IMG/VR virus record: IMGVR_UViG_3300009177_000032
Coordinates: 1 to 64,000 of that record
Reading direction: 5' to 3' (one strand)
DNA length: 64,000 nucleotides
Source: a virus
Below are positions 18,697-61,700 of the stretch, piece after piece. The notes under the pieces are model-generated. The model made no database searches, was not told the DNA's origin, and was given only the letters and a program-made list of their open reading frames with translations. Positions within the stretch are counted from its first letter, which is position 1; each line of letters starts with the position of its first letter. The position numbers and the translations under genes are program-made.

Positions 18697-19074
18697 TTAG
18701 TCGTCCGTTCCAGGCAGATGCTTGCGAAAACCCTCAGGCGCAAATGAGGTGCCGATATACCGAAAGAATCGAGAGCCATATCCTGGCGCCGTGCCCTGCA
18801 TCTGCATTGGACTGGTACCGAGGTGCACGAAGTTATGCCAGTGGATGAGGTCGTCGCTGTATTGCAAGGTCCACACAGCGGGGGTGTTAGTTGGGTAACG
18901 CAGCTCTGGCAAGTTTTTGTGCACCGGGCCGTTTGTGATGTTGGCAGCGTTGAGCGGGCTGAACAGGAGTTTAGGCACCGGCGGAGGTGCGGCTGGACGT
19001 GACGCGACTGCTGCTGGCTTTTGTCCAGCACACGCAGACAGCAACAGTAGGAGGATGCAATCAAACTTTCTCAT
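18697..19074 (-). CDS. Lipoprotein
   Basis: A 125-residue protein with a clear lipobox (LLLLSACAG, Cys 15) after a basic start. A Pro/Ala-rich spacer (residues 17-35) leads to a domain with VWTLQYSDDLIHWHNF, the pattern I associate with Verrucomicrobiota exported proteins. It should be lipid-anchored to a membrane. It could be an outer-membrane spanin by position, but nothing shows it. Confidence 0.65.
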   Translation of the reverse strand: MRKFDCILLLLLSACAGQKPAAVASRPAAPPPVPKLLFSPLNAANITNGPVHKNLPELRYPTNTPAVWTLQYSDDLIHWHNFVHLGTSPMQMQGTAPGYGSRFFRYIGTSFAPEGFRKHLPGTDD

Positions 19075-19322
19075 TCTCTGGCCCTAGCGCCTGGCAAGGC
19101 GGGCGGGGATGACTGCAATCGCCACTGCAACACCCCATTGGTGCCGCTGTCAGAGCGTTTGATCAAGGTCAGATTTGTGCACAGCATGACTTCTGCAACG
19201 TAGGTGTTGGTTTCGATGACGGCCCGCATGCGAAAGTAATTGCTGCCATTCTCACGCTTGAAGTCTGACGTGTTAACCCAGTTGGTTACGATCAGGGTGA
19301 TCAGGAAAAGGTTGGTGTTCAT
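19071..19322 (-). CDS. Small exported protein, unknown
   Basis: An 83-residue protein read from ATG 19322 with an N-terminal hydrophobic segment (MNTNLFLITLIVTNW). It has Thr/Asn-rich strands with two Cys-free beta repeats (NYFRMRAVIETNTYVAEVMLCTN). It overlaps the lipoprotein upstream (19516) and is coupled to the next gene by 4 nt. Confidence 0.5.
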   Translation of the reverse strand: MNTNLFLITLIVTNWVNTSDFKRENGSNYFRMRAVIETNTYVAEVMLCTNLTLIKRSDSGTNGVLQWRLQSSPPALPGARARE

Positions 19323-19526: not shown

Positions 19527-19766
19527 TCAGTCGGTTGGGTTCACTCCGTAAATTATGGAGGGGTTGAATTTACGGGAGCAGCCAAACGGTCTGCCGATCA
19601 GGGTTGAAATGGTTTGGCAGGTGCTGCACGGGCGCTCGCTCCATTGGTGAGGGTCGGCCTCTATCAGTTCTAGCGCGGTTTGGCACATTAAGCGAGCGGC
19701 AGCGCGTATTGTAGATTCAAGGACCTTCTCGCTTTCCAGCGACGGGGAGTGATTCTCGTTTGCCAT
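19527..19766 (-). CDS. Junction-repeat gene A: small Cys-containing protein
   Basis: A 79-residue protein that opens with MANENHSPSLE. The first five codons are the shared leader of this gene group. It has a CxxC-like pair (CSTCQ near residue 47) and a helical middle (RAAARLMCQTALELIEAD). The family is unknown. Its ATG is fused to the stop region of the upstream gene by the junction repeat at 19750-19776. Confidence 0.6.
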   Translation of the reverse strand: MANENHSPSLESEKVLESTIRAAARLMCQTALELIEADPHQWSERPCSTCQTISTLIGRPFGCSRKFNPSIIYGVNPTD

Positions 19767-19776
19767 AGGTCAGTCA
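19750..19776 (-). repeat. Junction repeat, copy A
   Basis: On the minus strand this 27-base unit starts with the stop codon of gene 19774-20136, continues through CTGACCT and ends with the first codons of gene A (ATGGCAAACGAGAAT core). It is identical over all 27 bases to copy C at 20427-20453. Confidence 0.9.
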
Positions 19777-20136
19777 GGTGGCGAGCGCGGTGCAGGCTAT
19801 CTTTCTAACTTCCGTTAATCTCGCTCGCAAATCAACCAGACCAAACACTCGAAACGCTGCATCGTCGTTTCCGAGTTGGTCGCATTGCCTCAGAGCCTCA
19901 GCGAGTCGCTCACAGAACACACAGGAAAATTGTTCGCAGCCTTGCGCCACATGCTCATTGTCAACTGGTGGTGCTTTTGTGGGATCATGGCGTCCTGCGA
20001 TCTTCTGACGTATTTCCTCAATGCCATTCCAGAGGTCTCGCCAGTCCTCAACCGTCCAGTCTTTAGCATCTATCGGGATTTTGGATTTCATCTCTTTGAT
20101 CGTGCAAAATTGGTTGAATTGTTCCGATTCACTCAT
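19774..20136 (-). CDS. Small acidic helical protein, unknown
   Basis: A 120-residue protein read from ATG 20136, which overlaps the stop of the 15-residue leader peptide. The sequence is helical and acidic with two Cys pairs (EQFSCVFCERL). Its stop is the first base triplet of the next junction repeat (19776). Unlike its neighbours it does not itself begin with the shared codons. Confidence 0.55.
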   Translation of the reverse strand: MSESEQFNQFCTIKEMKSKIPIDAKDWTVEDWRDLWNGIEEIRQKIAGRHDPTKAPPVDNEHVAQGCEQFSCVFCERLAEALRQCDQLGNDDAAFRVFGLVDLRARLTEVRKIACTALAT

Positions 20137-20180
20137 GAGTAGCAATTCTTTCTTAGAGGGGGTTGATTCTCGTTTGCCAT
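20133..20180 (-). CDS. Leader peptide B of 15 residues
   Basis: A short frame ATG 20180 to TGA (MANENQPPLRKNCYS). It starts with the same five codons as the three MANEN proteins but stops at once, and its TGA overlaps the ATG of the gene at 20136 (ATGA). It may couple translation of that gene, or be the remnant of a cassette whose body was lost. Confidence 0.45.
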   Translation of the reverse strand: MANENQPPLRKNCYS

Positions 20181-20191
20181 AGGTTTAGTCA
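20164..20191 (-). repeat. Junction repeat, copy B
   Basis: On the minus strand it opens with the TGA stop of gene C, then CTAAACCT in place of CTGACCT, and the same 15-base core. It leads the 15-residue leader peptide. Confidence 0.88.
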
Positions 20192-20443
20192 GTTGATAAT
20201 AACGTAGGCGTCCAGCCATTCGAGCGGTGGATCGCCTTCAAAATTCACCCGGCCATCTATGGAAAGCGTGGCAATTTCAGGACACTGAAGGTCCTTGTTA
20301 TCATCACAGGCGGGGCCGAGTATCGCCTCTCTCGTTGCTTTAGCGCGGTCCGCCAGATTGTCGAACACTCGGATGACGGGACTGCCTCCCGCTTCGGCGT
20401 GTTCAATTAGGACGTATTTCAGGGGGTGATTCTCGTTTGCCAT
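20189..20443 (-). CDS. Junction-repeat gene C: small protein, unknown
   Basis: An 84-residue protein opening MANENHPLK. It has strands and helices with no named motif. It ends at the first TGA of the junction repeat before leader B and begins inside the repeat at 20427-20453. Differs fully from its neighbours after the fifth codon, so this is a set of unrelated bodies behind one shared start. Confidence 0.55.
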   Translation of the reverse strand: MANENHPLKYVLIEHAEAGGSPVIRVFDNLADRAKATREAILGPACDDNKDLQCPEIATLSIDGRVNFEGDPPLEWLDAYVIIN

Positions 20444-20453
20444 AGGTCAGTCA
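20427..20453 (-). repeat. Junction repeat, copy C
   Basis: Identical to copy A over 27 bases. The first TGA on the minus strand is the stop of gene D and the ATG starts gene C. Confidence 0.9.
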
Positions 20454-20705
20454 GTCCTTTCCACCAGCCGCATGAAACTCGTTCCACCATGTATTCAATC
20501 GGCAGCTCAGGTTTCCCACTTCTCCATTGGTGATATCAATACTCTCGCGCAACGGGGCTAGAATTTTTTCCGCTGATCGCAATTCAACGCGCCATGTCTC
20601 TAGGCGTTTTTCAGCGTCTTTTTTTCGGGCAATAAGTTCCTGCAACGTGTCACCGTTACGGCAGGCGAAAGTGTTTTTATTCGGGGGTTTATTCTCGTTT
20701 GCCAT
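20451..20705 (-). CDS. Junction-repeat gene D: coiled-coil protein
   Basis: An 84-residue protein opening MANENKPPN, with a Lys/Glu-rich coiled coil (residues 20-60: ELIARKKDAEKRLETWRVEL). It is the first of the four repeat genes. Its stop codon lies within the junction repeat for gene C. Its upstream side lacks the CTGACCT part of the repeat and has only the 15-base start core. Confidence 0.55.
   Translation of the reverse strand: MANENKPPNKNTFACRNGDTLQELIARKKDAEKRLETWRVELRSAEKILAPLRESIDITNGEVGNLSCRLNTWWNEFHAAGGKD
20691..20705 (-). repeat. Junction repeat core, copy D
   Basis: Only the ATGGCAAACGAGAAT core is kept; the bases before it (AATT) do not match the other copies. Confidence 0.8.
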
Positions 20706-20727
20706 AATTAAAACGGAGGTGGCCCCG

Positions 20728-21174
20728 TTACAGTCGCTCTATTGTTATCGTTGCCCCCTCTTGACCGGGAGCGCACAGCTCGCTTTTTACTACCAGTTCC
20801 CGGAAGGAGGTCCAACAATCGTCGCACGGCAGTAACGTAGCAATCCGCGAGCGTGGACAAGCAGCCATCCGGATCTCGACGCCGATAGTCTGAAAAACGG
20901 AGCGTAATTGTGACTCGATAAGGGATATAGCCTTTTTCATCCACTCCATGTGCTCCGGCAGCGTGATCGGCCTGGCCATCGCTTTTAGGCCCCGCTTGCG
21001 ATACCAGATCTCCCCTTTGTAGGCCATCACTGTGGCGCTCTTGCTGTCGATCCACGCAAACGCCCGCTTGCCCGTCTTGAAGGATGGGATCGGGCCGATG
21101 CCCTTTAGCTCGAGGATGATTGGGGGCATAGGGCACTCCGTCGATCCAAACAATTCCGCTTGTGTCTTTGTCAT
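20728..21174 (-). CDS. RusA-like Holliday junction resolvase with a frame-displaced core
   Basis: A 148-residue open frame. The N-terminal part to about residue 83 and the end (LPCDDCWTSFRELVVKSELC, EGATITIERL) are consistent with RusA. Between about 20,925 and 20,830 the conserved RusA core lies in another minus-strand frame: RVTITLRFSDYRRRDPDGC, followed by LSTLADC, where RRRDPDG is the catalytic Asp pair of RusA. In the annotated frame these bases give unconserved text. Either two compensating indels occurred, or the read-through uses frameshifting. If functional it would cut four-way junctions in replicating phage DNA. Confidence 0.55.
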   Translation of the reverse strand: MTKTQAELFGSTECPMPPIILELKGIGPIPSFKTGKRAFAWIDSKSATVMAYKGEIWYRKRGLKAMARPITLPEHMEWMKKAISLIESQLRSVFQTIGVEIRMAACPRSRIATLLPCDDCWTSFRELVVKSELCAPGQEGATITIERL

Positions 21175-21184
21175 AGGGCATGGC

Positions 21185-21778
21185 TTAACCTGCGCCCATG
21201 GCCCTCAAGCCGGACTCATAGGCAGTTTTGAGCTTAATGAATTCCTCGTGCGTCCCGCCAGCGTCAGGGTGAAGCCTTTTCGAGAGCTGCCGGTAAGACT
21301 CCTGCAGTGTCGTGATGTTGATCTCGTTTGGGTCCCGAAAGCCGAACACCTTCCACCACTCCCGCACCTCCGGCGCAGTCGCCCCGGCCGGCAACTGCTT
21401 AAACCCGGTGAACATCGCCTTGATCATGTGCTTGGCTCCCCATCGTTCCATCCCGCGCATTGCCTCGACCGTCAACGCTATTGCCTGGATGTTGTGAGCG
21501 ATTCTGTTCCAGCGGTCGCAAGGGATGGCCATTTGCGTATTGTCCCACTCGAAGTAGGCGCAAACGCCCGGATCTTTCGGGTTGTCCTGGCCGAGCGCGG
21601 CATTGCTCGAGAGCACGATGCTTTTCGCGCCCATGCGTGCGAGCTCGCGCTTGAGGTTATTGAGGGCGCCTTGAGTGTCCGTCTTGAAGCTGCCCGATTC
21701 CCTGCGGAACGGGTCAGTCTTTGGCCAGCCCGGAGGCCATGCTAGAGGATAGGCGGTCGGTGTTTGGATCGTGCTCAT
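21185..21778 (-). CDS. J-domain protein
   Basis: A 197-residue protein. The C-terminal J domain (LQESYRQLSKRLHPDAGGTHEEF, HPD at 170-172) would stimulate host DnaK. The N-terminal 140 residues are unrelated to standard DnaJ and likely bind a phage client or replication protein. It overlaps the KH gene by 65 nt. Phage J proteins of this kind often sit beside replication genes, as here. Confidence 0.78.
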   Translation of the reverse strand: MSTIQTPTAYPLAWPPGWPKTDPFRRESGSFKTDTQGALNNLKRELARMGAKSIVLSSNAALGQDNPKDPGVCAYFEWDNTQMAIPCDRWNRIAHNIQAIALTVEAMRGMERWGAKHMIKAMFTGFKQLPAGATAPEVREWWKVFGFRDPNEINITTLQESYRQLSKRLHPDAGGTHEEFIKLKTAYESGLRAMGAG

Positions 21779-22304
21779 TGGGATGGTAGTTAGTTATGCG
21801 AAAACTGAGTTTCCGCCCGTTCCTGTAACCGTAAGGATAGAAGGCCACACCCAACGCCTTTACCAGCGTCAGATCGTTTTGCGGTACGTCGAGGACTACA
21901 TAGAGGTGATCGCCTTTGTCCTCGTAAACGACCTTGATAAGCCGGTCGTAAATGAGATTCAGGAATTCACGTATCATCGTCGTGAGCTCTCCGCCGCCTT
22001 CCCATTGCCGGTTTGGCTGAAATGGTTTTCGCTCTGGCTCTGCCTCGCCGCGGAAACTCTCTCGAATCTCGACCTTGACCTCGATGCCAATTCGCCGGCC
22101 CATGCGCTCGGCTACCTGGCGGATCGCCATGATGGTTTTGCCCTGCTTACCGATCATGATTCTCAGGTCCTGGGTTTCGGGCTCGACTGTGACCTCGAGG
22201 AGGTTCGTCGCGAAACGCTCTTTGAAGTTGATCCTATCGGGAGTCGACGAGTAAGACCGGAACAGGGAGATAAGAACCTTCGTTATCGGGTGTTTTTCGT
22301 GCAT
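21714..22304 (-). CDS. KH-domain RNA-binding protein
   Basis: A 196-residue protein. Residues 30-80 carry a KH domain close to the KhpA/YlqC type (LEVTVEPETQDLRIM, then GKQGKTIMAIRQ with the GxxG loop at 52-55). The remaining 110 residues add a beta-rich unknown domain. It would bind RNA or single-stranded DNA; a role in RNA control or as an Okazaki or recombination factor is inference. It lies between the J-domain gene and DnaB. Confidence 0.72.
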   Translation of the reverse strand: MHEKHPITKVLISLFRSYSSTPDRINFKERFATNLLEVTVEPETQDLRIMIGKQGKTIMAIRQVAERMGRRIGIEVKVEIRESFRGEAEPERKPFQPNRQWEGGGELTTMIREFLNLIYDRLIKVVYEDKGDHLYVVLDVPQNDLTLVKALGVAFYPYGYRNGRKLSFRITNYHPNEHDPNTDRLSSSMASGLAKD

Positions 22305-27231: not shown

Positions 27232-28227
27232 TTATCGGATGAGCCCGTATTTGGTTAGTGTCCACTCCGTAGGAGAGGTTGTGCCAAAGCCGTTGACGAC
27301 CCCCGGGCCGGCATCGTCCCAACTTGGCCAAGCGTTTTCCTTTAGGCATTGGCAATAGCGCTTGAGCGCCATCACATACTTGATCCGACCGATCGCGACG
27401 AAGTTATCGCCTACGGTCCGGCGGGCCTGCTGGAAAGGAAACTCATTTTCCTGAATGACGTGATGAAAAACCCATCTCTCTTGCGGCCGGGATGCGGTGT
27501 AGATATCAATGCTCATTGCCGCCTGGGCGTCGTAGTTCTGCCGGTCGATCACCTTCTGCCACTCATCCGGGCTCGCGTTGCGGGCCGTCTTGAAGTCGGC
27601 CAGGCTGTTTGAAAACTGGCCTTTTATCGACGGGACAATGTCGATCAGGCACTTGAGCGGGACCGCTATCTTTGTCTCGCGGTCGACGTAGGTCGCAATG
27701 CACATGACCTGATATTGCGCATCGGCTGTGAGCGCGCCGATCCAGGCGTCCTCCTTGAGGATTTTAAGGGCCTGGCGCGCGTCCTCGTAATCCGCCCGCC
27801 TGACAATCTGTTTGCCGGCTTTCCTGGCCTCCTTCGTCCACTCCTTCGCCTCTTTGCACAGCGGTTGCCAGGGGACTAAGTCGCCGTCTCGGGCCTCGCC
27901 CTCTTTCACGATCGACATTGTCTTTGTCGCCGTGACCGTCTCAGGCTGAACCGCAAAGTTTCCGTCAAACCGGCCCGAGGGGCACGTAAAGAGAGCGTCC
28001 ATCAGCGTGCCCCATTCGGTCGCGTCGGTATCTTTGAACACGTAGCCGCGGTACCACCGTTGCGGATTTGAGTCGAACAGCATGAGCTCGCTCCGGCTCA
28101 TCACAAAGTTTGGGTCGCCCCGCTTTATGGCGGGGTCCTGGCGGAGGTAAATCTCGGTCGGGACGTCGGTCCCAATGATTTTACCGTCCTCGAGTTTTAC
28201 CGGATCAAAAAAGTCTGAGGCATTCAT
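27232..28227 (-). CDS. PD-(D/E)XK exonuclease (RecE/Cas4-like)
   Basis: A 331-residue protein. The conserved pattern is SRSELMLFDSNPQRWYRG near residue 44, EWGTLMDALF near 71, the catalytic strand LIDIVP (Asp 196) and DFKTA (Asp 211, Lys 213), and a QNYDAQAAM helix near 230, as in RecB-family nucleases. With the neighbouring Sak4-like and Rad50-like ATPases it likely makes the single-stranded ends for recombination. Coupled with a small gene upstream (4 nt). Confidence 0.82.
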   Translation of the reverse strand: MNASDFFDPVKLEDGKIIGTDVPTEIYLRQDPAIKRGDPNFVMSRSELMLFDSNPQRWYRGYVFKDTDATEWGTLMDALFTCPSGRFDGNFAVQPETVTATKTMSIVKEGEARDGDLVPWQPLCKEAKEWTKEARKAGKQIVRRADYEDARQALKILKEDAWIGALTADAQYQVMCIATYVDRETKIAVPLKCLIDIVPSIKGQFSNSLADFKTARNASPDEWQKVIDRQNYDAQAAMSIDIYTASRPQERWVFHHVIQENEFPFQQARRTVGDNFVAIGRIKYVMALKRYCQCLKENAWPSWDDAGPGVVNGFGTTSPTEWTLTKYGLIR

Positions 28228-42941: not shown

Positions 42942-43732
42942 GACTCTGTTGCTGCGGTTACGTAGCTCCCCCAAAGGTTGGCCATCCGGAGGTATTCCTC
43001 CGCAACATCGCCAAGTTCAAGCCAAAGACCGATCTGATCCTTTACTCTGAGCATCCCTGGCCCGACACGTTCCGGTTGAAGGCGAGCCCGGAGGTGTTCC
43101 GGCCCATGACGTTCCCCGACGGGAAGCCTAACAAGTTCTGCATGCAAAACGGCGCCTTCTTTACCGGTGCCAAGATTGCACGCGATCGAGGTTACACCCA
43201 CATGATTACCCTCGAGGATGACGTCCGTGTAGGGCGGCCGGACTGGGATCAATATATTTGGAACGAGTATTTTTCGCATGGCAAACCCCTGCTTGCGGCC
43301 GGGACACTGGCAACCTACAACCCCTGCAACTGGAGCCCGGAGGCGAGCAAGTTGTGGGCGGAGCTCCTGCGCGTGAACACCCGGAAGAATTTCCCGATTG
43401 CTACCTACGGTTGGCTCGGCGCGGGGATAAAGGGCAAGACCGCGGTGTTCCCTAATGGAGCCCTGGCTATCTACGATCTAAACTGGTTGGGCAAATTCTT
43501 CGACCTGACCAACACCCAAGCGACGGCCACGTCTCACGACGCATGGGACTTTGCGATCGGATTCAAGATTTGGGACACGTTCGAGGAAATGTCCTATGAC
43601 CTTGTGGCCAACCTGCACACAGTCGGCTCATGGTATCGGGACCTGGTGACCGATGAGGAGGAGCGCAAGCGGATGCTGGTAGACGGGGAGGTTTGCGCCG
43701 TGCATCACATAAAGACAGATTGGGAGCCATGA
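42938..43732 (+). CDS. Glycosyltransferase-like protein (GT-A fold)
   Basis: A 264-residue protein. The HMITLEDDVRVGRPDWDQYIW stretch (about residues 89-108) has the Asp cluster expected of GT-A transferases, followed by GTLATYNPCNW. The N-terminus has three adjacent Cys (CCC at 4-6), which is unusual. The acceptor could be modified DNA, virion protein or cell-surface glycan. It begins a group of at least four related enzymes. Confidence 0.68.
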   Translation: MRLCCCGYVAPPKVGHPEVFLRNIAKFKPKTDLILYSEHPWPDTFRLKASPEVFRPMTFPDGKPNKFCMQNGAFFTGAKIARDRGYTHMITLEDDVRVGRPDWDQYIWNEYFSHGKPLLAAGTLATYNPCNWSPEASKLWAELLRVNTRKNFPIATYGWLGAGIKGKTAVFPNGALAIYDLNWLGKFFDLTNTQATATSHDAWDFAIGFKIWDTFEEMSYDLVANLHTVGSWYRDLVTDEEERKRMLVDGEVCAVHHIKTDWEP

Positions 43733-44715
43733 ACTATTTCGAGCAATACAACCCTGGCGAGTGCAAGGGAATAACGCCGGATATCCGGCTCAAGGAAGCG
43801 GTGGAGCTCGCGCTCGAATTTTTTGAACAGAAGCCGCTAGGCCAGCCCTACAAAGAGGGCCAGAGACGGATCATTGGCGAGCTTGTGAAAGTTTACGGCC
43901 CCAGGAAGCTGGTCAAAGAGATTGACCGCGAAGCGCTGGTCAAGCTGGTGAGGGTGTATCAGGCGCGCAACGTCGAGGTGTATAATCAGCTCATTCACAT
44001 TAAGCGCTTTTTCGAACTCATGCGCCAGGAGGGCGTCATCAACATTAACCCGGTGCAATACCGGCGCCTCCCCTTCACGATCCGGCCCTACGCGGTGAAA
44101 CCGATAATCAGCGAGGAGCAGTACCGCCGATTGTTGAGCGCCAGTATGTCGCCGGATTTTACCGAGGGTTGGCCGATTGTGATTATGGGGGCGTGGGAAA
44201 CCGGGCTCCGCGGCTGCGACATAGCTACGCTCCAATGGGACGCATGCGAGGACGGCAGCTACGTGGACTTCGTCAATGAGATGATTGTGACTCGCCCTTC
44301 CAAAATGCGGAGGAGGAAACAGCGATTGGAAATACCGATCGCTGGCGAGTACCTCGAGGCGTTGTGCGAGCTGCAGCAATCGAGGGGAGACAGCAAGTTT
44401 GTGACACCCTGGCTTGCCCATAAGTTTAATTTCGGGACCCGTCCCTCGCATTTTTGGGATGAGTTCAAAAAGATTGCCGTCCGGTGCGGCATGGACGCCT
44501 ACACGTTCCACTGTTTCCGGCATAGCTTTGTGACACGGTGCCTCCGAGCTGGGGTAAGCCCGGTAGTGATTGGGAGCCTGACGGGCCAGAGCCTGAAGAT
44601 GATCCAGCACTATAGCCGAGTCGATAACAGCGATAAGATTAGCGCGCTGGATGCCATTCGAAAGGCAACCCACGCCGAGCAGGTTAAACGCCTCGGGTAT
44701 CAGCCCCCCGTCTAA
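43729..44715 (+). CDS. int: Tyrosine recombinase/integrase
   Basis: A 328-residue protein. It has a SAM-like N-terminal domain and the catalytic residues of tyrosine recombinases: Arg 161 (ETGLRGCDI), a Lys near 192-197, HCFRH with His 261 and Arg 264, and HYSRV with His 294 and Tyr 295 as nucleophile. It lies between two glycosyltransferase-like genes and overlaps the first by 4 nt. No att site is evident nearby. It may integrate the genome, or act as an invertase for the surrounding genes. Confidence 0.87.
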   Translation: MNYFEQYNPGECKGITPDIRLKEAVELALEFFEQKPLGQPYKEGQRRIIGELVKVYGPRKLVKEIDREALVKLVRVYQARNVEVYNQLIHIKRFFELMRQEGVININPVQYRRLPFTIRPYAVKPIISEEQYRRLLSASMSPDFTEGWPIVIMGAWETGLRGCDIATLQWDACEDGSYVDFVNEMIVTRPSKMRRRKQRLEIPIAGEYLEALCELQQSRGDSKFVTPWLAHKFNFGTRPSHFWDEFKKIAVRCGMDAYTFHCFRHSFVTRCLRAGVSPVVIGSLTGQSLKMIQHYSRVDNSDKISALDAIRKATHAEQVKRLGYQPPV

Positions 44716-49147: not shown

Positions 49148-49758
49148 ACAAAACCGCTGAATTCGTGAACATCGCCCGCAAGCTGGATATCGACCCGCTA
49201 GTGATTTATGACCTCGGGTCATTCGATGCCGCTCAGGCGGTGGAGCTCGCCATTGCTTTCCCCAAAGCTCGAGTCGTTGCGCTCGAGGCCGACCCCTACA
49301 ACATCCCGAAGTGCCTGGTCAATGCGAAGGGCCATCGAAATATCACTATCGTCAATGGTGCCCTGGCTCCGCTCGGCACTCGTCCGCTCATCCACTTCAA
49401 CCGCTCAGTCGGCACAAACGACCAATGCGGGAGCCTCTTGGTGCCGACGGACCTCAAGGATATGCCGGTCGAGTGTATTGTGGTGCCGGCCGTGACAGCC
49501 GCGGACCTCGACAGCTTCTTCGGCTTGCCAACTTTGCTCTGGATGGACGTCCAAGGATCCGAATGGAACTATTTCCTGGGTTTTCCCTTCCGTCCGCGGC
49601 TTGTGTGGTTAGAGGTCGCCTATGACCCCTACTACCACGACCAGCCGCATAAGGATGAGCTCGTCCGCAAGATGGCCGATATTGGTTACAAGCCAATCTT
49701 TGAGGAGGTCGGGGTCCCCGGTAGATGGGGAGACGTCTGTTTTTGGCTTGGGTACTAA
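49144..49758 (+). CDS. FkbM-family methyltransferase
   Basis: A 204-residue protein. Motif IYDLGSFDAAQAVEL, then ARVVALEADPYNIPKC, is the FkbM SAM pocket, and LLWMDVQGSEW is its second signature. FkbM enzymes often methylate sugars or lipids; placement after the GT cluster suggests glycan methylation. It is convergent with the giant gene (4-nt overlap). Confidence 0.82.
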   Translation: MNKTAEFVNIARKLDIDPLVIYDLGSFDAAQAVELAIAFPKARVVALEADPYNIPKCLVNAKGHRNITIVNGALAPLGTRPLIHFNRSVGTNDQCGSLLVPTDLKDMPVECIVVPAVTAADLDSFFGLPTLLWMDVQGSEWNYFLGFPFRPRLVWLEVAYDPYYHDQPHKDELVRKMADIGYKPIFEEVGVPGRWGDVCFWLGY

Positions 49759-52700
49759 TGCGCTCGCGGCCTGAGTGACCTAATCCCGCCTGCACCAGTC
49801 CTCCGGAGAGCTCCGGCCCTTCCACCTGGGCGCCGAATTGACGGACCTCGTGGACCGCGGAGGCTCCTCGCCGGCAATCGCACCCCGCGCCTGAGATTGG
49901 GAAGCCGAGCAGCTCCACGTAACGGAGCTCCCCCGCCTGCAGCTATGCTCGGCACCTGCGCATTTTGCGGGGTGACATACCTGCTCGCGCTCCCGGTCGG
50001 CACCTGGCCATTTCCCGGCGCCGTTTTGGATAGCGCTTCCATTGCCGAGGTGTCGACCCCGACGCTCTGCAAAGCCGTCTGGTTCGCCTGATTGAAGGCT
50101 GTGCGGATATCGCTGAGGGTTGCGTCCGGTCCGAGGGCCTCGAGCGACTGCTTGAAATTCTGGCCTCGAGCGACTGAGTAGTCAGCAAGCTCCGTCTTGT
50201 TCATCGGGCGGTACTCGCCATCGATTGGATAGCCTTTGGCTGAATCAACCGCGGGCGGCCGATATCCTGAATTGAGCAGCGCCGCATAAGGTGCGAGCGC
50301 CTTAGCTTGTTCGGTGTCCACTATGCCAGGGTAGATCCCCATCACCCCGCCGCCGGCTGTCAGCGTTTGGATCCAGCGCTGGACCGCGTCCGGTGTCCCG
50401 ACAGGGTCGCCGAGGATGTTGACGGCCCGCGCCTGGCTCGTCGGCAGCGGGACGAGGAAGTCCCAAAAGCCCGAGAGCTTGGAGTCCATATTCACACCAG
50501 CTCCGCGCGCAAACTCTTGGTAAGCTGGCAACCCGAGGATGTTGGGCGAGACGTAGGCCGCAGCCATCTTCGAGACGTTGGGGACCCCATATTCAGTCCC
50601 GCTCTGCACCACGCCAGAGAATGCTTTGCCGGAGATAAGCGTCCCCCAAAGGCTTTGAGCTGCGATCGAGGCAATGTCGAGCGCGCCGATGGGCGGGATT
50701 TTACCGGGAGCAATCCCCTTCTTTTCGGCTTCAGCATTCAGCTTCTCTTGCGCCTTCTCGCGCGCCATGACCGCCTCGAGAATTGCCCCAGCTGTCGCCG
50801 CATACGGCGCAAAGGCCGAGGCGAGCCCGACCGTCAAAGACATTGGGATGAACTCGTGATCGTTGAGGACGAGCTCAATCGTCCCCGATCGGTGACCTTG
50901 CGCCTCCCAAAGTTCACGCTCTGCTTTGTTCTTCGGCCCCCTCAGGAATACCCGGATGAGGCCCGCGAACACCATGCCCATGATGAGCGCGCCGAGGATG
51001 CTGCCCACAATGGCCTGCACCCGTCTTTGATACCGGTCCTCCTCACTCCAGAACCATGGGGACTCCTCGTCTCCGCCCATGCCAGGAACCTTGATTGCTC
51101 CCTGGGCGTAGAGCGGCGTGAAAAAGAGCGAGTAATTGATGCCGGTGCCGACTGCGTTGGCAAAGCGTGCGAAGCTGAAAGGCAAGCCGATGTTCGCCGC
51201 AAACCCTGACGCCATCTTGCCGGCGCCAGCGACAAGCCCGCCAAGCCCGTGGGTCACGCGCTCTTGCCAGGCGATCGTACGACGCAGCTTCTCGTTTTTC
51301 GCACGGAAGTCATCCGCCGGAAGCCCAAGCGCCCGGATATCCTCGTAGATATTTGAGCGGACCAAGTTCCAAGCAGCCTCGTTGACCTCGTTGGGGCCGG
51401 CATTCTCGCCCAACACCTGGCGGGCCAGCGCCATGGCCGCATCCCGCTTCTCTTTGAGGTTGCCAAGTATCCGGTCTTTGTTGGCCGCAATCTCGGCTTT
51501 GTCCATGCCGCGCTCCCGCAACTCGCCTTCAATCTGATTGGCGAGCTCCTGAAACTCCGCCGGAACACCCTGGAAATTATCGACGGCTTGAACGAACCGG
51601 AGGCTAAACCGGGCGAGCCCCAGGAGGCGCAACACCGCGGCTTTGCCGTGCTGACCCTTTTCCGAAGCTGCCTTTGCCTCGGCTTCCATTCGTTCGAACA
51701 TCAACACGCCCGTAACCAAACGGTCCACATTTCGACTCTGGCCACGACCAGCCAAGGCCGAGCGGGCGGACGCTATAGCCGGCCTAAGTGCTTTGAGCGC
51801 TCGTCCGTACCCGTCGGCCAAAGCAACATTGAGGTCGCGCCACGCCGACTCTCTGCTCCCCTCGGCTTGCCGCATCCAGGCAACACCGGCCGCCCTGGTA
51901 GGGATGTGCCAAAAGAGTTGGCTGATGATGTGTGTCGGGAGGCGGAGGGCAAACCCGACCTTGAGCAGCATATTGGCTACCTCAAACTCGTTGATGGCGT
52001 CGGCAATGTTCCGCCGGCTGTTCCACGCATTGCGCCAGGATTGCACGCTGAATCCGGGGAACACGATCGGGCGAGTCATCTTCGCCCAAAGCGCGCTTAT
52101 ATCCTTCGAGAGAGTGCCACGTCTCTCCTCGGTGAGAGCGTCTCGAGCAGCCTGGGCCCGCCGAAGCGCTTCCGCGTCGTTTCCGGCCTGAGCCCGTTCC
52201 TCGGGGGTGAGTTCCTGCAGCTTCTGGATCTGAGCCGCCAAGTCCTTGAACCGCTTAACCTGAGCCTCCGTGGGAGGTGTCCATCCTTTTGCGGCCGCAA
52301 TTTGGCGCAAGACGTCGGTCGAGTCGAAAATGCCGGCATTAGCAGCCGCCACAATCTTATGCCAGAGCGGTTTCCCCGGGCGCGCAAACTTTCTTTCCTT
52401 GGGTGTAAGCCCGTCTGTCGCACGCTTAATTGCCTGGACCCGTGCCTTTTCGAACAGGTTTTGATAGGCCGCTTCGAACAAGGCCGCAGCCCGGTCAGCC
52501 ACTTCGGCGGGCACCCCATACCGGTTGATGAGGATTTGGCTGAAGTTTTGGGCAATCTGAGCCTGCCGATAGAAGGGGGTGTCTAGAGCCTGGCGGACCA
52601 GATCCGAGGCTTTCGGCATCACCCTTTGGATAATGCTCTTGTTCGCCACGGTCTGGACGTACTCGACAAGGTCAAGCCGCGGGTCGCGAAAGAGGCCAGC

Positions 52701-55700
52701 ATTGATTTTAGCGCCTAGCCTCGCTTCAGGCGTAAGCGTAGCGCCACGTTCTTGAGGCGGTTGGAACAAAGGGGCGCGAACTCGCTCCCGAGCTCTCTCA
52801 AGCTGTCCTGCTAATTGTGTCTCGATAATGGACAGGACCCTAGCCCTTGTGCCTTCGTCGGCTCTGGACAGGTCCATGTTGGCCTCGAGGTTGGCCCAAT
52901 AGGCGTCCAAGACCCTGGTAACCTCGGCCTCCGGCTCTTGCGCGAGCTTCTCGAGGTCGATACGGGTATCCGCAGGGCGCTGCACCGGTGCCTTGAACCG
53001 GGTTTTGCTGAAATCCTCGCGGATGAGGTCCTGAGCCGTCTTGAGCGTAACCGGGTCATATCCGACGAGGTTGTCTCGGATATCCTTCCAATGCCGATAC
53101 TCCGGCTGGTCGAGCCCGCGCTCGATTTGGTCCCTGGTTGGCTCCTCTCCGGCCTGGAAATTGGCGAGCAGCTCCTGCCGTTCTTCGTCGCTTTGCGCAT
53201 CCAACAGCGCTTGCTTACGGCCGGCATTGAATTCCGCAGCCTCGACCGCAGCCCGCATGATCCCGTTTATCTTGGCCGAGGTCGCGGGCGTCATGAGGTG
53301 GATCAGCCGGTCGACCGCCGTCAGCTTCGTAGGCTTTGGCGTCGGTTTCGGTTCAATCCCCTGCCTTGCAGCCTGCTCGAGGAAGCTATTTACCGCCTCC
53401 TCGGTCCTGGCATCGCTCTGCAGCTTGGCCAGCGTTTTCTTGAACTTCGGCTTGAGCAACCGCTGCACCCATCGATAAGCCGCGTTGCCCTCATCGTGGA
53501 TCCGCAAGGCAATCGTTTTGTCGACCAGGTCTTTGAGCGCGGGCTTTTCCTCGAGCGCCTTCGAGATCTCCTCGTCGGTGAAATAATCCCGCATGTGATC
53601 GGTGATGCGCGCCAGGATCTTGCGGATAAAGTCCCCGCCGAAAGCGTCCGAATAGGTCCGCGCCAGGATCGTATTGACGTTGCGCGCCACGTATTGGGCC
53701 GTTTTCCTGAGCCCCGCCAGCACTCCGAGCATTAAACCACGGTGGGATGCCTCCCCCTGAGTGACCGCGTAGAGCTCGGCCTTGAGTGCCGGACTAAACG
53801 CCGTGACGTCATCCCCGACCATGTTGTTGCGGATTGAGTTGATGAGGAAACCCAATGCCCCTTTTGCCATGGTTTGCCCTGGCTGCTGTTGGGTCGATAT
53901 ATCGTCCTGCACCAGCTTGAGCAGCCGGCGCCCCTCAATCTCAGATTCGAAGTCGGGGTCCACCAGCTCGTAATACCCGTTGTCCTCGGAGGGGATGACC
54001 TGCAGTCCGGCCCTCGTAAAGGTCTGCTCTGCGTGCCTCTTACCGGCCTCGAGCATTTCCGGGCTCATCTGCTCGCGCCCAAGGATCGTGTCGATTACCC
54101 CCATGCGCTGTGTGGTGACCTTCTCGTTGTCGAGCTCGAGGTCGGCCATGTTGAGCCCCTCATCCTCGGGTAGCTCGGTTTTCTCCGGTCCAGGCTCGGC
54201 TTGCCAGCGCTCGAGCTCGGCTCCGGCCTCCGGAGTGTTCCGGTAACGCCCGTTCAAAAGGTCGCTGATAACCCGTTTGATACCCGGTTTGTACCCGATA
54301 ACCCGCCGGAGCGCTTCGAGCAGCCCATTGAGCCATTCCCGGATCCTGGCAAGCAGCCGCTGAAAGAGGGACTCCTCCTTGTGGTAGAACGGATTTGACC
54401 GCGCGTACTCGTTCCCTGCCACGCCGGCAAGGTACTCCTGCGGACTGGACAGATAATACCAGCGATCGAGGAATGCCTTAAGCTCGGGGTGCGCGCCGAC
54501 GATATCGGCCATCGCCCGGAGGAAATCCTCGGAGTGAATGCCATCACGCGCCATCATCCTGCCGAGCAATTCTTGCACCTCCGGCGGAAGCGCCGTTGCG
54601 TCTTTCACCGTGCCTAGCGCCTGCTGAATCTCCTCCTGGCGATATTGCTCGACCTCGGCCCTAACCTCAGGAGGCAGTAGCTCCCAAAGGAAGTGGAATA
54701 TTTCATGTGGAAATGTCCCCGGCCGCGCGCCCTTCGAGAGTTCGATGAGCTGGTTTGCGATGTTTGCCCGCCCTGAAACGTCCCCAGGCAGACGGTCCCG
54801 CACAGAAACCATGAGCTTGGACCAATCCAAATTGCGCATCACCGGCTCGGAAAGGAGTGCCAGGGCAACCCGTCGGGCCTCATCCGATATCTTAAGCTCC
54901 GGATCTTCGAACATCCGCCGGATGCCTTCGATGCCGACGCCACTTGCCGCCTCTCCCGTCGCCGTTTCCCCTGGGGCCTCGATGCTCGAGCGGCTGCGCC
55001 CGGAGCTCCCCCGCGTGTTGGAGTCTGCCACTAACGGGATCAGTGGCGTAGCTTCGCCGATGGCCTTGAAATTCTGGCCGGTGATCTTAACGATGCGATC
55101 GATCGCCGCCGGCATATCCTCCTCGGACACATTGGCAACCATGCGATTGCCGCGCTTGTCAAAGTCCCCGGTGATATCGCGGAGCGGCCCGTCGAGGTAA
55201 ATCGTCCCTCCCGTCGACTTTGCCGCTGGTGTCGAGATCTGGAACGTCCGATCGCCCCAGCTCGGTCTTACAATCCGCACAACCTGGCCGCTCTCAATCG
55301 GTATCCTGTCCGCCCCCGCCTTAGCGTGAGTGACAAGGAAGTGAGTTGCCGCAGTCCCGTTGACGAGCTCGAGCCTCGGATCGCTCACCAGTTGAGCCGG
55401 TCCCCAGTTACGGGGCATCTGCAGCCCGGTGACAACCTGTCCCTCCGAGGACTTGAACCGGACCATTTTGCCACGGCCGCCCGTAGACACATATCCCTGG
55501 ATCGGATTGCCCACGACAAAGAACCGCTCATACCGCGCATTCTTGTCCCCGGGCCCGAGGTCCGATGGCACGGAGTTCGACGGCCCAAGCTCCCATCCCT
55601 CTTGCCCGCGGAACTGAGCGCCGTTGATATAGGCAACCCCGCCCGGAGCGTGGAGCAGGAATTTGAACCGGAAAGCGCCAGGACTAAAGCGATTGGTCGG

Positions 55701-58700
55701 AAATCGAACCTCGGTGAGCATGCCCTGGAATTCATCCCCGGTCGCGTTGTTTTGCAGCTTCACGACTCTGCCGGCATCCTCCATTACCAAGTCGGCCATC
55801 GCCTTTGCCGCGCTCCACCGCCGGCGCGCAGCCTCTACCTGACCGGCCCTAACATTGATGCTGATCCCTTCGGATTCGTGCGCGGTGACCTCCTTCTCGC
55901 TCAACTCAGCCTTTCGGTCCTCGTCGGCTTGCCACGCAGCGCGCTCTTGATTGATGCGCGCCTCCATTTCGTCGAGCTTTGCATCCCCGTTAGCTTTGAC
56001 TTCGTCCCAGTCTTGCAGAAGTTTCTCGCGCCCGCCCGTCTTGCGCTGGAATTCATTGACCATTTCGTCGCCCGTGGGGACGTGCCTCAGGTCCCGGATG
56101 TTCCAGATCTGCAAGCGAGTGCTCGCCGTGAATATGTTGCTCTCGTCGGTGCCGGCCTTGAGCTGCTGATCGTCTTGGAGCCGACCGTCCCAGTCGTCAT
56201 GCACCACAATCTCGAGGTCATACTCACCAGTGGCTTTGAGCTGCTCAATACGCTGCCGGTAAGCAGGGAGGATGTAGTCGTAAGCCTGCTTCTGGCTCGA
56301 GTCCGGCAAAAGCGCCATGCGGCCAGTGAACCGGCGCGCCAGGTCCCGATCGTAATCGAGCGTCCCGTCGTCCTTCTGACTCACGAACAGCCCAAGCATG
56401 CTCTGGATCTCCGGGGTCTGGTCGAGGTACTCCGCCACGATGGCATCCCCGTATTTGTTGAAAATATCCTCAGCATCGATCTTGATCGCGCTGTCGCTGT
56501 CCGCCGTGGTGTTGGCATTCAGTGACTTCATTTTGCGCGCCGTCATCGCCGCGGGCCTCAACTCGGCTTGGATTGGCAGGACCAAATGAGTGTAGCGCGC
56601 GCCGTAGGGGACCTCGCCTTGTGGCGTTTTGTAACGTCCGAGCAGCACCATGCCCGTGCGACGGATTCGGCCAAGGGTCTGCATGAACACATTGATATCA
56701 AGCGCAGGCTGAGCAATGACCATGTGCCGCGGGCGTTTATCCGTGACTTCCTTTTTCTCGGAAGCGTGCGCGCTTAAGCCCGTGCTGCCGCTCGCGTTGA
56801 GGAGCATCCCATCATAGGTCCCGTTGTTGAACCCGTTGACGACCGTGTTTTTGTTCGCCTTCTTGAAATGTTTGTAGGTCGCCTCGCCCGTTTCGAAATT
56901 CGTGTATTCGAGCCCGCTCTCCCGCCCGGTCAACTCCGCTATCTTCACCCCCTCGGCCTTTAGCCGCTGGATGATGTAATCGATCGGGCTGATTGGGAAC
57001 TTGCTCTCAATCGCGTCTGCAGCGCGCTGGATTGACCGGTAGAGATCCCCGAGCCCGTATTCGTCGGGGTTGATAATGATGATGTTGGTTTGGCCCCCAG
57101 GCAGCTTTTCCTTTGCCCGAAGCGTCCGGCTGAGCGCGTGCCTGGTCAGCTCGTTCCAGCGGAGCGTAATGCTTTGCACTGGCTGGATATTGTGATCGGT
57201 AACGAACTGGTCGAGGAAACTCTCCATCGTGTTCATCAAGGCGATCACCGGCTTTTCGCCGGCCTTGATGGCTGCAACACACTCGGCAACTACCTCCTCC
57301 GCCTTGGCCGCGAGCAGGAGCTGACTAACCTGATTGTGGACGATCGCGGCAAAGTCCGTCATGTCGGTCGCGTTTTGCGACATTGCCGTCGACTCGTTCC
57401 CCTCGCCCTCTGCAAGAACCGCGTCCCGTATGCGCTCGCTGAAATCGACGATCTGCGAGAGAACGTCCGTAACTGCGTCGACTTCCTCGGTGAGCTTGGC
57501 CAGGTCCTTGACCTCGACCATTTTCATATCGTAGCGCACACCGGTAAAGTCCCGCTCCCGCCTGACATACTGTCCCGCCTTGGCCAGCGCTTCCGATACC
57601 GCCTGCTGCAGCGCAACCCCGCCCTTCTTCATGGCTTCGACGATCTGCCCAAAGTTTTGCGCGGCCTTGCTCAGCCCGGTCCGGAAGTACACCGGCATGT
57701 TTTCGGGACGTTTCGCGTACGTTGCGCTCAGGTAGGCCACGCCTCCCATGCCAGCCTTTGCCCCGTTGGCATTGAGTATGCCCGGAACGTGGATCGTCAT
57801 GGTCAGCCCCGTAACAGGGTTCTTGCGTTTGACGCCTGGACCGCCGCTAAAGAAAGCGGCCTGCATCGATGACTCGGCATCGCCCGCGGCCTCGTGCGCC
57901 TCGTCCATCACGATCACGACCGGGTTTTGCCGCGAGAGCTGCTCGAGGAATTCCTGGCGCGCATTGCGCACATTGACTTGCGAGTAGGTCGAGAAAATGG
58001 CGTTGAACTTATCGGGGTCCCATCCGTTTTGGAGAATATCGTTGATGATGCGCCGTTGGATCTCCGAGGAAGGAGCCGACACAAGCCGATTGCCGGCAGC
58101 GTCCACGATCGAGGCTTTCGCCGGGTCCCCGAAGATGAGCGGCTTAACGATGGTATGGATATCCTTCAGGTCCCCCCACATATCGGAAAACAGCTTCGGG
58201 TCTTTGGTGAAGAACACCGGGATCATTCCATTGAGCAAAGCGTAACGGATAAAGGCCGCAGCCTGGCGCCCTTTGCCTATGCCAGTCTCGTCGCCGATCA
58301 CCAATGCCCCGCCGGTTTCGAACTGGTAAATACCAAGGGCAACACCGTCGATTTGGTCCGCCGCGAGGATCGTCCGTATCTCCATGACGTCCATGTGTAG
58401 CCGGTCCGCTACATATTCATCGATCGACCCGTGAGCCTTTTTGATGGCATCGAGCGCGTCGAAAACACCTTGCGCGATGTTCTTCGGGATGAGCGTGCCG
58501 AACGGGGAGCCATCTGAGCGAGGCTCGTAAGGGACCTGATACTCGGTCGCGTTTACCTTCGGGGGTTGCTTCGGACTGGTCGTCTCTTTCGGCGGGAGCT
58601 TTTCTTCAGCCTGCTCCTGCTGGACGTCCTGCATGAACCGCTTGAGGTACGGCTTGATGACGTCGCCGACCTTCTGGATCCAATACTTCGCAAAATCGAG

Positions 58701-61700
58701 TAGCGACTTGCCCGCTTTTTTGAACTGCTCCCACGCCTCTTGAAAATGTTTCTTCGCCTCCGCGTAGGTCTTTTCGTTGAAGGGCGGGACACCGAAAACA
58801 CCGCCGAGGTTGCTGCCGCCGAACAGATCGGTAAGTCCCTGGACCGCCTTATCGATACCAGTGATCCCCTGTTTGGCGAGGTCACTGATTATGTCCGCTG
58901 CCGCTTTGGTCGTCGCGCCCGGAGCTCCACCGGCCGGGGGCGGGGTGCCTTCGAGCGTTTCACTAACTGGCGCTTTCGTTGCACCCTTGGTGGATTTCGT
59001 TCCACTTTTGCCCTGTTTCTTTCCAGCCGGCCGGGGCTGCTTAGGCTTCGTGGGCTTCTTGACCTGTTCGCTGGCCGTGTCGAGAAGATTGTCGAGATCC
59101 GCGTCGGTGAGATCGGTAATGTCCGAGCCGGCAGGACGGTCTAAAGCACCCTTGCCAGAAAGCTCTCCAGACTTTCCTCCGCCAGGAGCTGCGCCGCCTC
59201 CGGTTGGGGCATTAGCTGGCGCGCCTTTACCGCCTCCTTTAGCCCCGCCTTCCACTGGTGGAGCGGTCCCCCCTCCGCCGCCGGGTTGTTTAGCAGGTAA
59301 GCCGGCGCCTTTGGATCCTCCAGTAGTTTCCCCGGAAGGAAGTTGAGCGCCTCCTGCGGGAGGTCGTTGTCCAGTTGGCGATTGGCCTGCTCCAGCTCCT
59401 TCTCCGACGCCTCCCTCCTCAGTCGTTGTAACATCCCCACTTGGAGCGCCAGGAGCTCCTCCGCCGACCGCGGGGGGCCTTGAGCCAGGAGGTAATAGGT
59501 TAGGTACTCCGGCTGTTCCGCCGGTGCCCAAGCTATCTCTGTAGGCTGTAACTGCATCTCTGGTTTTCTGCGCTTCGTCCCAAAGCTGCTCCCACGTGTC
59601 GTAACGCGCAACACTTTTTGGGCCCAGGTCGCCGGACTGTCCGATCGGGATGGGCGTTGTTTTGCGCCCCGCAATCACGATGATCTGAACCGGCCACTTG
59701 GCTCCCTGACGTGCGTAGAGGTCGCCGCTAAGCTCGAAATTGGCAACGACATTATAATGCGCGTAGAGCCAATTCTCGAAAACCCAAAGCGCTCCCCTGT
59801 TCTCTCGCCCCGCGTTGGGCTCCATGCCGGCACCGAGGATAATACCCGCCGTCCCTGTATCCTCCATCGAGGTAAGCCCGCGAGCAGCGATGATGTGCTC
59901 AATCTTCTTGAGCCCGTAGCCGTCGACCGCCGTCGGTTGCTTGATCGTACCAAAGGGCGGGTTGAGGTGCACGATCTCGAACTTTCGCGGAGAGCTGTAG
60001 TTGAGCGCGTTCTCTCCCGTTACCGTGCCAATGCCGAGCTTCCTCAGGTTCTCACGCCGCTCCGCGTTGAGCTCGTTGCCCTCACTGCGCGCAAAGTTTC
60101 CGCCGATAAAGAGCATGCCGTTGCCGGCCGTATCGTCGAACAGCGCCGTTTGCGGAGTGACGCCAGTCATGTGCCCCAGGGCAAACGCCATCGGGGCAGG
60201 AGTCGAGTAAGCCTGATTTTCGATGCTCGTGCTCGTCCTGGCCGACAAGTTTGGCTGCTCGTTGTAAGCCTCAACGAGCTGATGGAACTTAAACAATGCC
60301 CCACGGTCTGGCCGGATTGCCAGAGCCTGAGAGGATCGAACGATCTGCAGCTCGACCTGTTCCTGCATCTGCTTCACCGATATCCCGCGCTGAGCTGCGA
60401 GCTTCTTCAAATTGACGGCCATTTGCTGCGAGCTCACGTTCGAGTTGAGGATCCCAAGGATCTCATGATCGTCGGTCTGCGGAGCGGTTTCCTCGCCGGC
60501 GATTTTGAAATCAGGTGCCCCGCCCTGCAGATCCTTCAATCGGGCGTAGATCGTAATCCCGCGGCCCTTGATATACGCATCCCCCGGAGCCGGATAATTG
60601 ACCCCTCCTTCAAACCACGTACCGGTAACGTGCGCGCCGACGTGCGGACTAAAATTGGCAGCCATTTCGCGCAACCGGTCTTGTAGCAGACTGATCACCT
60701 TTTCCCGCGGGGCGTCCGCTGGCGGGCCCAGGAGTCGCTCGCGCATCTCGTCGGACATTGGCGCGCCAGGAGGCGGGACAGCTCCGGGCTTCTGTTTCTT
60801 CTTCGCGTCGGCAATAAGCGTGTTGAGCGTTTTCAGCGTCTCCCGGATGGGAGGCCATTCCGCCATTTCCGACCGCGTGACCCCTGGCTTTTGGTAGGTC
60901 TGATAAGCCTGCTTCACTCCGGCCACGTTGAGCTTGAGCTCGTCCGCTTGGCGCAAGAGACTGCTAATGACCGAGAGGTCCATCCGCTCATCGCTACTGA
61001 GCTTGACTGGCTGTTTAGGGTGCCACTCGCTGTAGGGCGGGACCTCGCCGTCAATGATCGTGTCCCCTTCGTGCAATGTACCGTGACTCCATTTTCCGCT
61101 AGGAGTGAGATAAGCGACGACCGGTTTATTACCTGGCAGTGGCTGGCCTGGGGACTGCTCCCAATACCCTCCGAAAAGGCCAGGAACGATCTGCCCGTCT
61201 GCGGTCTGGATCGCAATCGGTGTGTTGTTGGCCGGGATTGCCGGCAGCTTCTCCCAGTCGATGGACTTTAGCGGAGTGATCGGGGCTTGTGGCGGAGGTA
61301 CGGGAGGAGCCCCCGATGGTAACTGAGGATTGACCGCGGGCGGGACGCCTGGCGCACCAGTCCCCCCCGTCGGAGTGACCGCACCTGTTTCGATTTGTGG
61401 CGCTTGGAGGAGACGCGCTCCGGCAGGTCCTTGAACTCCACCGGGGCCTCCTTCTGGAACCGGCGGAACACCTTCGGTTTGTTGAGCCGGAGTTTCACCC
61501 ATTGGGCCTTGCTGACGATTGGCATAGTTATCTCCTTGTGTTAGCAAAGCCTTTGGCTGCTCCGATCCGTAAAACGCAACCAGCGTTTCCGGGGATAAGC
61601 CAAGGTAGCTCTGCCAGAATTTGCTATCTATTGTCGGTCTGAGAGTCGTGATCCGTGTCGTCGGGTTGCGCGCCACACCGAATGCCTCTTTGGCCGGAAC

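Follow-up and report, generated by a model that had tools for sequence, protein, structure and literature searches.

The window analysed here comprises positions 1-64,000 of the viral record IMGVR_UViG_3300009177_000032, which extends in full to 78,672 bases. Two ORFs of the record are noted here in passing. A single 4323-aa ORF (window 49755-62726) carries AAA_34 and Helicase_C_4 (strawberry-notch) domains and resembles the giant helicase-bearing proteins of some phages, and a 1216-aa ORF (66139-69789 of the record), possibly a tail or fibre protein, contains internal repeats of about 66-73% identity (locus L103, record 68846-69570). A tandem, head-to-tail row of small ORFs, spaced 262-414 bases apart and flanked on one side by the early replication genes and on the other by more small genes, is encoded on the minus strand (Table 1). 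The 15-base sequence ATGGCAAACGAGAAT occurs in this row in four exact minus-strand copies, at 19752-19766, 20166-20180, 20429-20443, and 20691-20705. Each copy opens an ORF, so an earlier note on this DNA was right that four genes or peptides begin with the same 15 bases. None of the bodies that follow has a significant family in Pfam, PHROGs, NCBIfam, or PADLOC, and Rfam gave no match. Hairpin matches like that at 20712-20729 are no more frequent in the region than expected by chance.

Table 1. The gene row, its junction copies, and adjoining features (window coordinates)
Feature	Position	Strand	Description
Hairpin, 7 bp	20712..20729	-	AACGGGG/CCAC/CTCCGTT, then TTAATT; just before copy A
Junction copy A	20684..20705	-	ATGGCAAACGAGAAT followed by AAACCCC; opens the row's first gene; without upstream TGACTGACCT
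Gene A, 84 aa	20451..20705	-	MANENKPPNKN...; body helical or coiled-coil-like by eye; no significant family
Junction copy B	20422..20454	-	Stop codon of gene A (20451-20453), CTGACCT, ATGGCAAACGAGAATCACCCCC
Gene B, 84 aa	20189..20443	-	MANENHPLKYVLIEH...; alpha/beta body
Junction copy C	20157..20191	-	Stop codon of gene B, CTAAACCT, ATGGCAAACGAGAATCAACCCCC
Leader peptide, 15 aa	20133..20180	-	MANENQPPLRKNCYS; its TGA and the following gene's ATG overlap as ATGA
Gene C2, 120 aa	19774..20136	-	MSESEQFNQF...; listed as 19774-20145 from TTG; helical (low-confidence prediction); no family
Junction copy D	19745..19777	-	Stop codon of gene C2 (19774-19776), CTGACCT, ATGGCAAACGAGAATCACTCCCC
Gene D, 79 aa	19527..19766	-	MANENHSPSLESEK...; has CSTC; no family
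Lipoprotein-like ORF, 65 aa	19319..19516	-	After the row; start without junction
83-aa gene	19071..19322	-	MNTNLFLITLIVTNWVNT...; sole gene with DNA similarity to the second carrier, G001

A stretch of 29 bases, CTGACTGACCTATGGCAAACGAGAATCAC, is identical in copies B (20429) and D (19752); its TGA is the stop codon of the preceding gene, and over the 33-base repeat the two copies differ at a single position. The earlier note had described this pair (its copies C and A) as identical over 27 bases beginning with the preceding stop; the identity and the stop codon hold, and the length is corrected to 29 bases, or 28 when counted from the stop codon. In copy C, TGACTAAACCT replaces TGACTGACCT. Copy A has neither a preceding stop codon nor TGACCT, and its upstream sequence is unrelated. 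Stop-to-start spacing is 7, 8, and 7 nt at three of the copies, copy A being without a close upstream stop. When up to three mismatches were allowed, shuffled sequence averaged 1.7 matches, and the sole match in the window beyond the four copies had three mismatches; this comparison rules out a chance origin of the four copies. No fifth copy with one mismatch or fewer was found in the whole 78,672-base record. Assembly error is also ruled out, because an independent contig from another metagenome (IMGVR_UViG_3300048894_000146, 10,726 bases) repeats the locus at 99.99% identity, the single difference being base 20569.

When 2.9 million viral contigs were scanned for the junction, one further carrier with a row came to light, IMGVR_UViG_3300010401_000040 (hereafter G001; 56,547 bases). 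Two copies are located near its contig end (56012-56028 and 56271-56287), and the contig ends within the row. Like the record of the window, it may be incomplete. TGACCT is present upstream of the G001 copies, with the full TGACTGACCT at one of them, and the stop-to-start spacings are 7 and 3 nt. The genes behind the junction encode 98 and 83 aa; they differ from each other and from all of the window genes, and their bodies have weak PHROG matches only. The check that the earlier note had proposed, whether another phage would show varying bodies behind a fixed junction, thus came out as it had anticipated, with G001 carrying the junction before two different small ORFs. Comparison of DNA and proteins revealed, besides the junction, one 83-aa gene shared at the DNA level and one protein at 34% identity. 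The junction is therefore common to two phages with hardly any other resemblance, both of which apparently infect bacteria.

Wider search patterns returned single matches only, in unrelated settings. Those in L085 and L088 (MANEN or junction-like) have unrelated contexts, that in L097 lies inside a gene, and those in L104-L107 and L115-L122 are one match each in unrelated places with no row; all of these candidates were rejected. The DnaJ-like protein encoded at 21185-21778 (phrog_9210) has relatives in Synechococcus, Erythrobacter, Caulobacter, and Gordonia phages. The row is absent from L110, L111, and L112, three relatives found through this neighbour gene, and searching 50,697 records of isolated phages turned up no similar DNA. 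Nor is the arrangement a general one: when loci totalling about 1.2 Mb, almost all of them from other phages and with these three relatives among them, were scanned for start-anchored 13-mers, no comparable family of unrelated bodies appeared outside the window and G001.

The 83-aa gene at 19071-19322 is located downstream of the row in both phages, with 82% identity in DNA and 81% in amino acids. Its first 47 coding bases are identical between the window and G001 (L102:15476-15727) and the remainder is about 25% diverged, giving a sharp boundary anchored at the start. A block of 47 identical bases followed by this divergence was not reached in 100,000 shuffles, and 11 of 30 four-fold sites in the gene differ between the phages. 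This block independently records exchange or constraint at the start of genes.

Alignment of the six copies from the two phages defines an invariant block consisting of T plus ATGGCAAACGAGAAT, followed by mAmyCCC and preceded by CCT in five of the six. Conservation spans about -3 to +22 relative to the start codon and fades on both sides. The 15 core bases are unchanged in all six copies, including the third positions of GCA AAC GAG AAT. These fixed third positions, set against the changed four-fold sites of the shared 83-aa gene, point to DNA or RNA and not to the protein alone, although they are few (four synonymous positions in six copies). No Shine-Dalgarno sequence was consistent across the copies or found in a constant place. 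In a comparison of the six copies with a hand-picked gene set, the start region folds less stably in five copies (-3.5 to -7.3 kcal/mol) than 35 other starts do on average (-9.5 kcal/mol), copy A being the exception. Excluding copy A, the starts lie within a few bases of an upstream stop, as in translational coupling, and copy C additionally contains the ATGA overlap. These spacings suit ribosome restart after the upstream stop, at 7, 8, and 7 nt in the window and at 7 and 3 nt in G001. Because copy A is without the upstream half, reinitiation cannot be general.

The reading that we favour, with a confidence that falls slightly short of even, is that the repeat is a start-codon or reinitiation module that doubles as short homology for gene exchange. 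Judged from the sequences, the module would comprise some 22-33 bases, usually including the preceding stop codon, CTGACCT, and the ATG with the first five to seven codons, and would be common to otherwise unrelated small accessory ORFs. Most likely it is a translation-start element that acts in cis, within the mRNA, and dispenses with a Shine-Dalgarno sequence. Ribosomes finishing one small gene would restart 7-8 bases further on, and the A-rich, mostly weakly structured early coding stretch would aid initiation. A KH-domain protein of the KhpA/KhpB family (window 21714-22304) adjoins DnaB just upstream of the row. It is a possible RNA-binding partner of the repeats; it is present in the phage of the window, and none was found in G001, whose record is possibly partial.

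The second function of the proposed module follows from its layout. Because the same sequence stands at every boundary, with a coding part that sets the frame and an upstream part that holds the stop codon, recombination between any two copies would swap or add a whole ORF and leave both frames intact. The likely route would run through the RecE-like exonuclease that the phage itself encodes, acting alone or with an annealing partner. A RecE/exonuclease VIII-like gene is located at 27232-28227 in the window's phage, and both phages encode proteins with weak matches to AAA_24-like ATPases, which may be part of the machinery. No actual swap event, with the same flanks around a different body, was seen among the two lineages, as only these two carry the repeat.

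The same observations can be read with recombination as the whole explanation. The start segment would then be a functionless scar, copied along with gene starts by short-homology recombination and identical because it is young or homogenised. The drift of the sequence on both sides of the core is in keeping with such a scar, as are the phage recombination genes, and the start-anchored 47-base block of the 83-aa gene is what a recent exchange beginning at a gene start would leave. However, the two phages that contain the six copies have next to no other similarity in DNA, and only the core has stayed perfect, the neighbouring codons 6-8 having changed. We regard a scar without function as somewhat unlikely; with only two lineages and six copies, constraint and recent copying are not cleanly separable.

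Conservation of the encoded peptide could also reflect a function of the protein, in which MANEN followed by a polar residue and Pro or Ser serves as an N-terminal signal for localisation, stability, or partner binding. The peptide is identical in all six copies, with codons 6-7 varying within K/H/Q and P/S. In a low-confidence model of gene B the shared stretch is unstructured and the first strand begins at residue 10, past that stretch, in keeping with a tag. Against a tag, the synonymous positions are invariant too, and in five of the six copies conservation reaches back past the ATG to CCT. Copy C also argues against it: here the repeat encodes a peptide of 15 codons, separate from the body, that ends in a stop overlapping the start of the following gene. 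At this copy the module would thus serve as an entry point for translation and not as a protein tag. Taken together, we consider an N-terminal signal quite unlikely.

The frame of gene C2 is open back through junction C to a TAA within it and is one base out of step with the repeat. One base in a C5 run (window 20143-20165) decides whether gene C2 is fused to the MANEN start. Either a one-base slip split a tagged gene, which coupling then kept alive, or the leader exists by design, or a programmed frameshift joins the two. With a slip or a leader by design, the module in copy C can act only as a translation entry.

Past codon 9, the bodies have no mutual likeness beyond chance. None of the pairs of tagged-gene bodies scored clearly higher than shuffled sequence (lowest p about 0.08), and the two weak p values among 28 tests (0.005 and 0.011), each of which involves an untagged neighbour, were lost after correction. 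Descent from one gene duplicated in tandem, whose copies diverged past recognition everywhere except at the start, would account for the similar sizes (79-98 aa) and for the head-to-tail layout with its 262-414 base spacing. The pairwise comparisons, however, gave no significant similarity between bodies at the sequence level, where a common fold could still go undetected, and the low-confidence models differ, gene B being mixed and gene C2 helical. Old paralogy of the row is therefore improbable.

Several known systems resemble the row in part. The closest in kind, the Start-Associated Sequences (SAS) of Cluster K mycobacteriophages and similar motifs in Cluster EF Microbacterium phages, are short asymmetric repeats at the starts of unrelated genes; they sometimes include the stop codon of the preceding gene, and a role in translation initiation has been proposed for them, their function being unproven (PMC3203893, PMC7302621). 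The junction is like them in that the same short sequence is found in one orientation at several gene starts (all four copies in the window and both in G001), is tied to the starts of unrelated genes, and usually includes the preceding stop. SAS nevertheless lie upstream, at the ribosome-binding site, with conservation ending at the start codon, whereas the conserved span here extends into the coding sequence and has no Shine-Dalgarno part. Re-alignment of the SAS in TM4 confirmed that they are conserved upstream and that conservation is lost right after the start codon, making SAS and the junction mirror images around the start codon. SAS are also spread over the genome, whereas the junction is confined to one tandem row, and the junction sequence is unrelated to the SAS consensus GGGATAGGAGCCC or to the EF variant. 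Because the upstream position that defines SAS was not found, the junction was not filed as one.

Among Cluster O mycobacteriophages, gene 14 of Corndog is flanked by a 17-bp direct repeat, and YungJamal has a repeat at gene 60; in each case one phage has a single small gene that its relatives lack, which has been explained by recombination between the repeat copies (PMC4351075). Corndog gene 14 provides a precedent for a single small gene being gained or lost between short direct repeats at gene boundaries. The Corndog and YungJamal cases are single events with two copies, however, and involve neither a row with one start sequence nor a second unrelated phage with the same sequence. In lambdoid phage mosaics, short conserved boundary sequences at module borders are thought to guide homologous recombination. 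Those borders are single-copy and shared between genomes, whereas the junction is repeated within one genome at successive start codons. In the part of the literature that was searched, no named equivalent with a coding repeat was found.

The earlier note had likened the row to a gene-cassette array, with unrelated bodies swapped behind a fixed junction. Integron gene-cassette arrays are likewise rows of unrelated ORFs separated by a common sequence, but their recombination site is located at the 3' end, whereas the shared sequence here is the coding start of each ORF. The junctions coincide in register with no attC-like inverted repeat, and the one tyrosine recombinase that was detected scores 12.5 bits against an integron-integrase cut-off of 265. 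With neither attC sites nor an integron integrase, identity with an integron array was excluded; what stands of the earlier reading is the variation of the bodies, as seen in G001. That a recombinase nonetheless recognises the repeat and inserts ORFs site-specifically is highly improbable: the window's phage does encode this tyrosine recombinase (43693-44715), but the enzyme is generic and 24 kb away, none was found in G001 (a record that may be partial), searches also detected no serine recombinase of the resolvase family, and the repeat lacks inverted symmetry.

Ordinary short-homology recombination combined with a translation-start role fits better than an integron-type array. A wider proposal, unlikely as it stands, is that the row represents a phage ORF-cassette system without a dedicated recombinase, in which a coding, frame-setting start module would serve both as expression signal and as homology for the capture and exchange of unrelated small accessory genes between unrelated phages. 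An RNA-binding protein of the phage, such as the KH-domain protein, might then read the module. A start module of this kind predicts that new ORFs will be found behind the same start in other phages. Small genes with no relatives abound in the early regions of phages, which raises the open question of how a phage acquires them and expresses them at once. If the reading offered here is true, a simple answer would be a start module, present in repeated copies, that settles both frame and initiation while also supplying homology.
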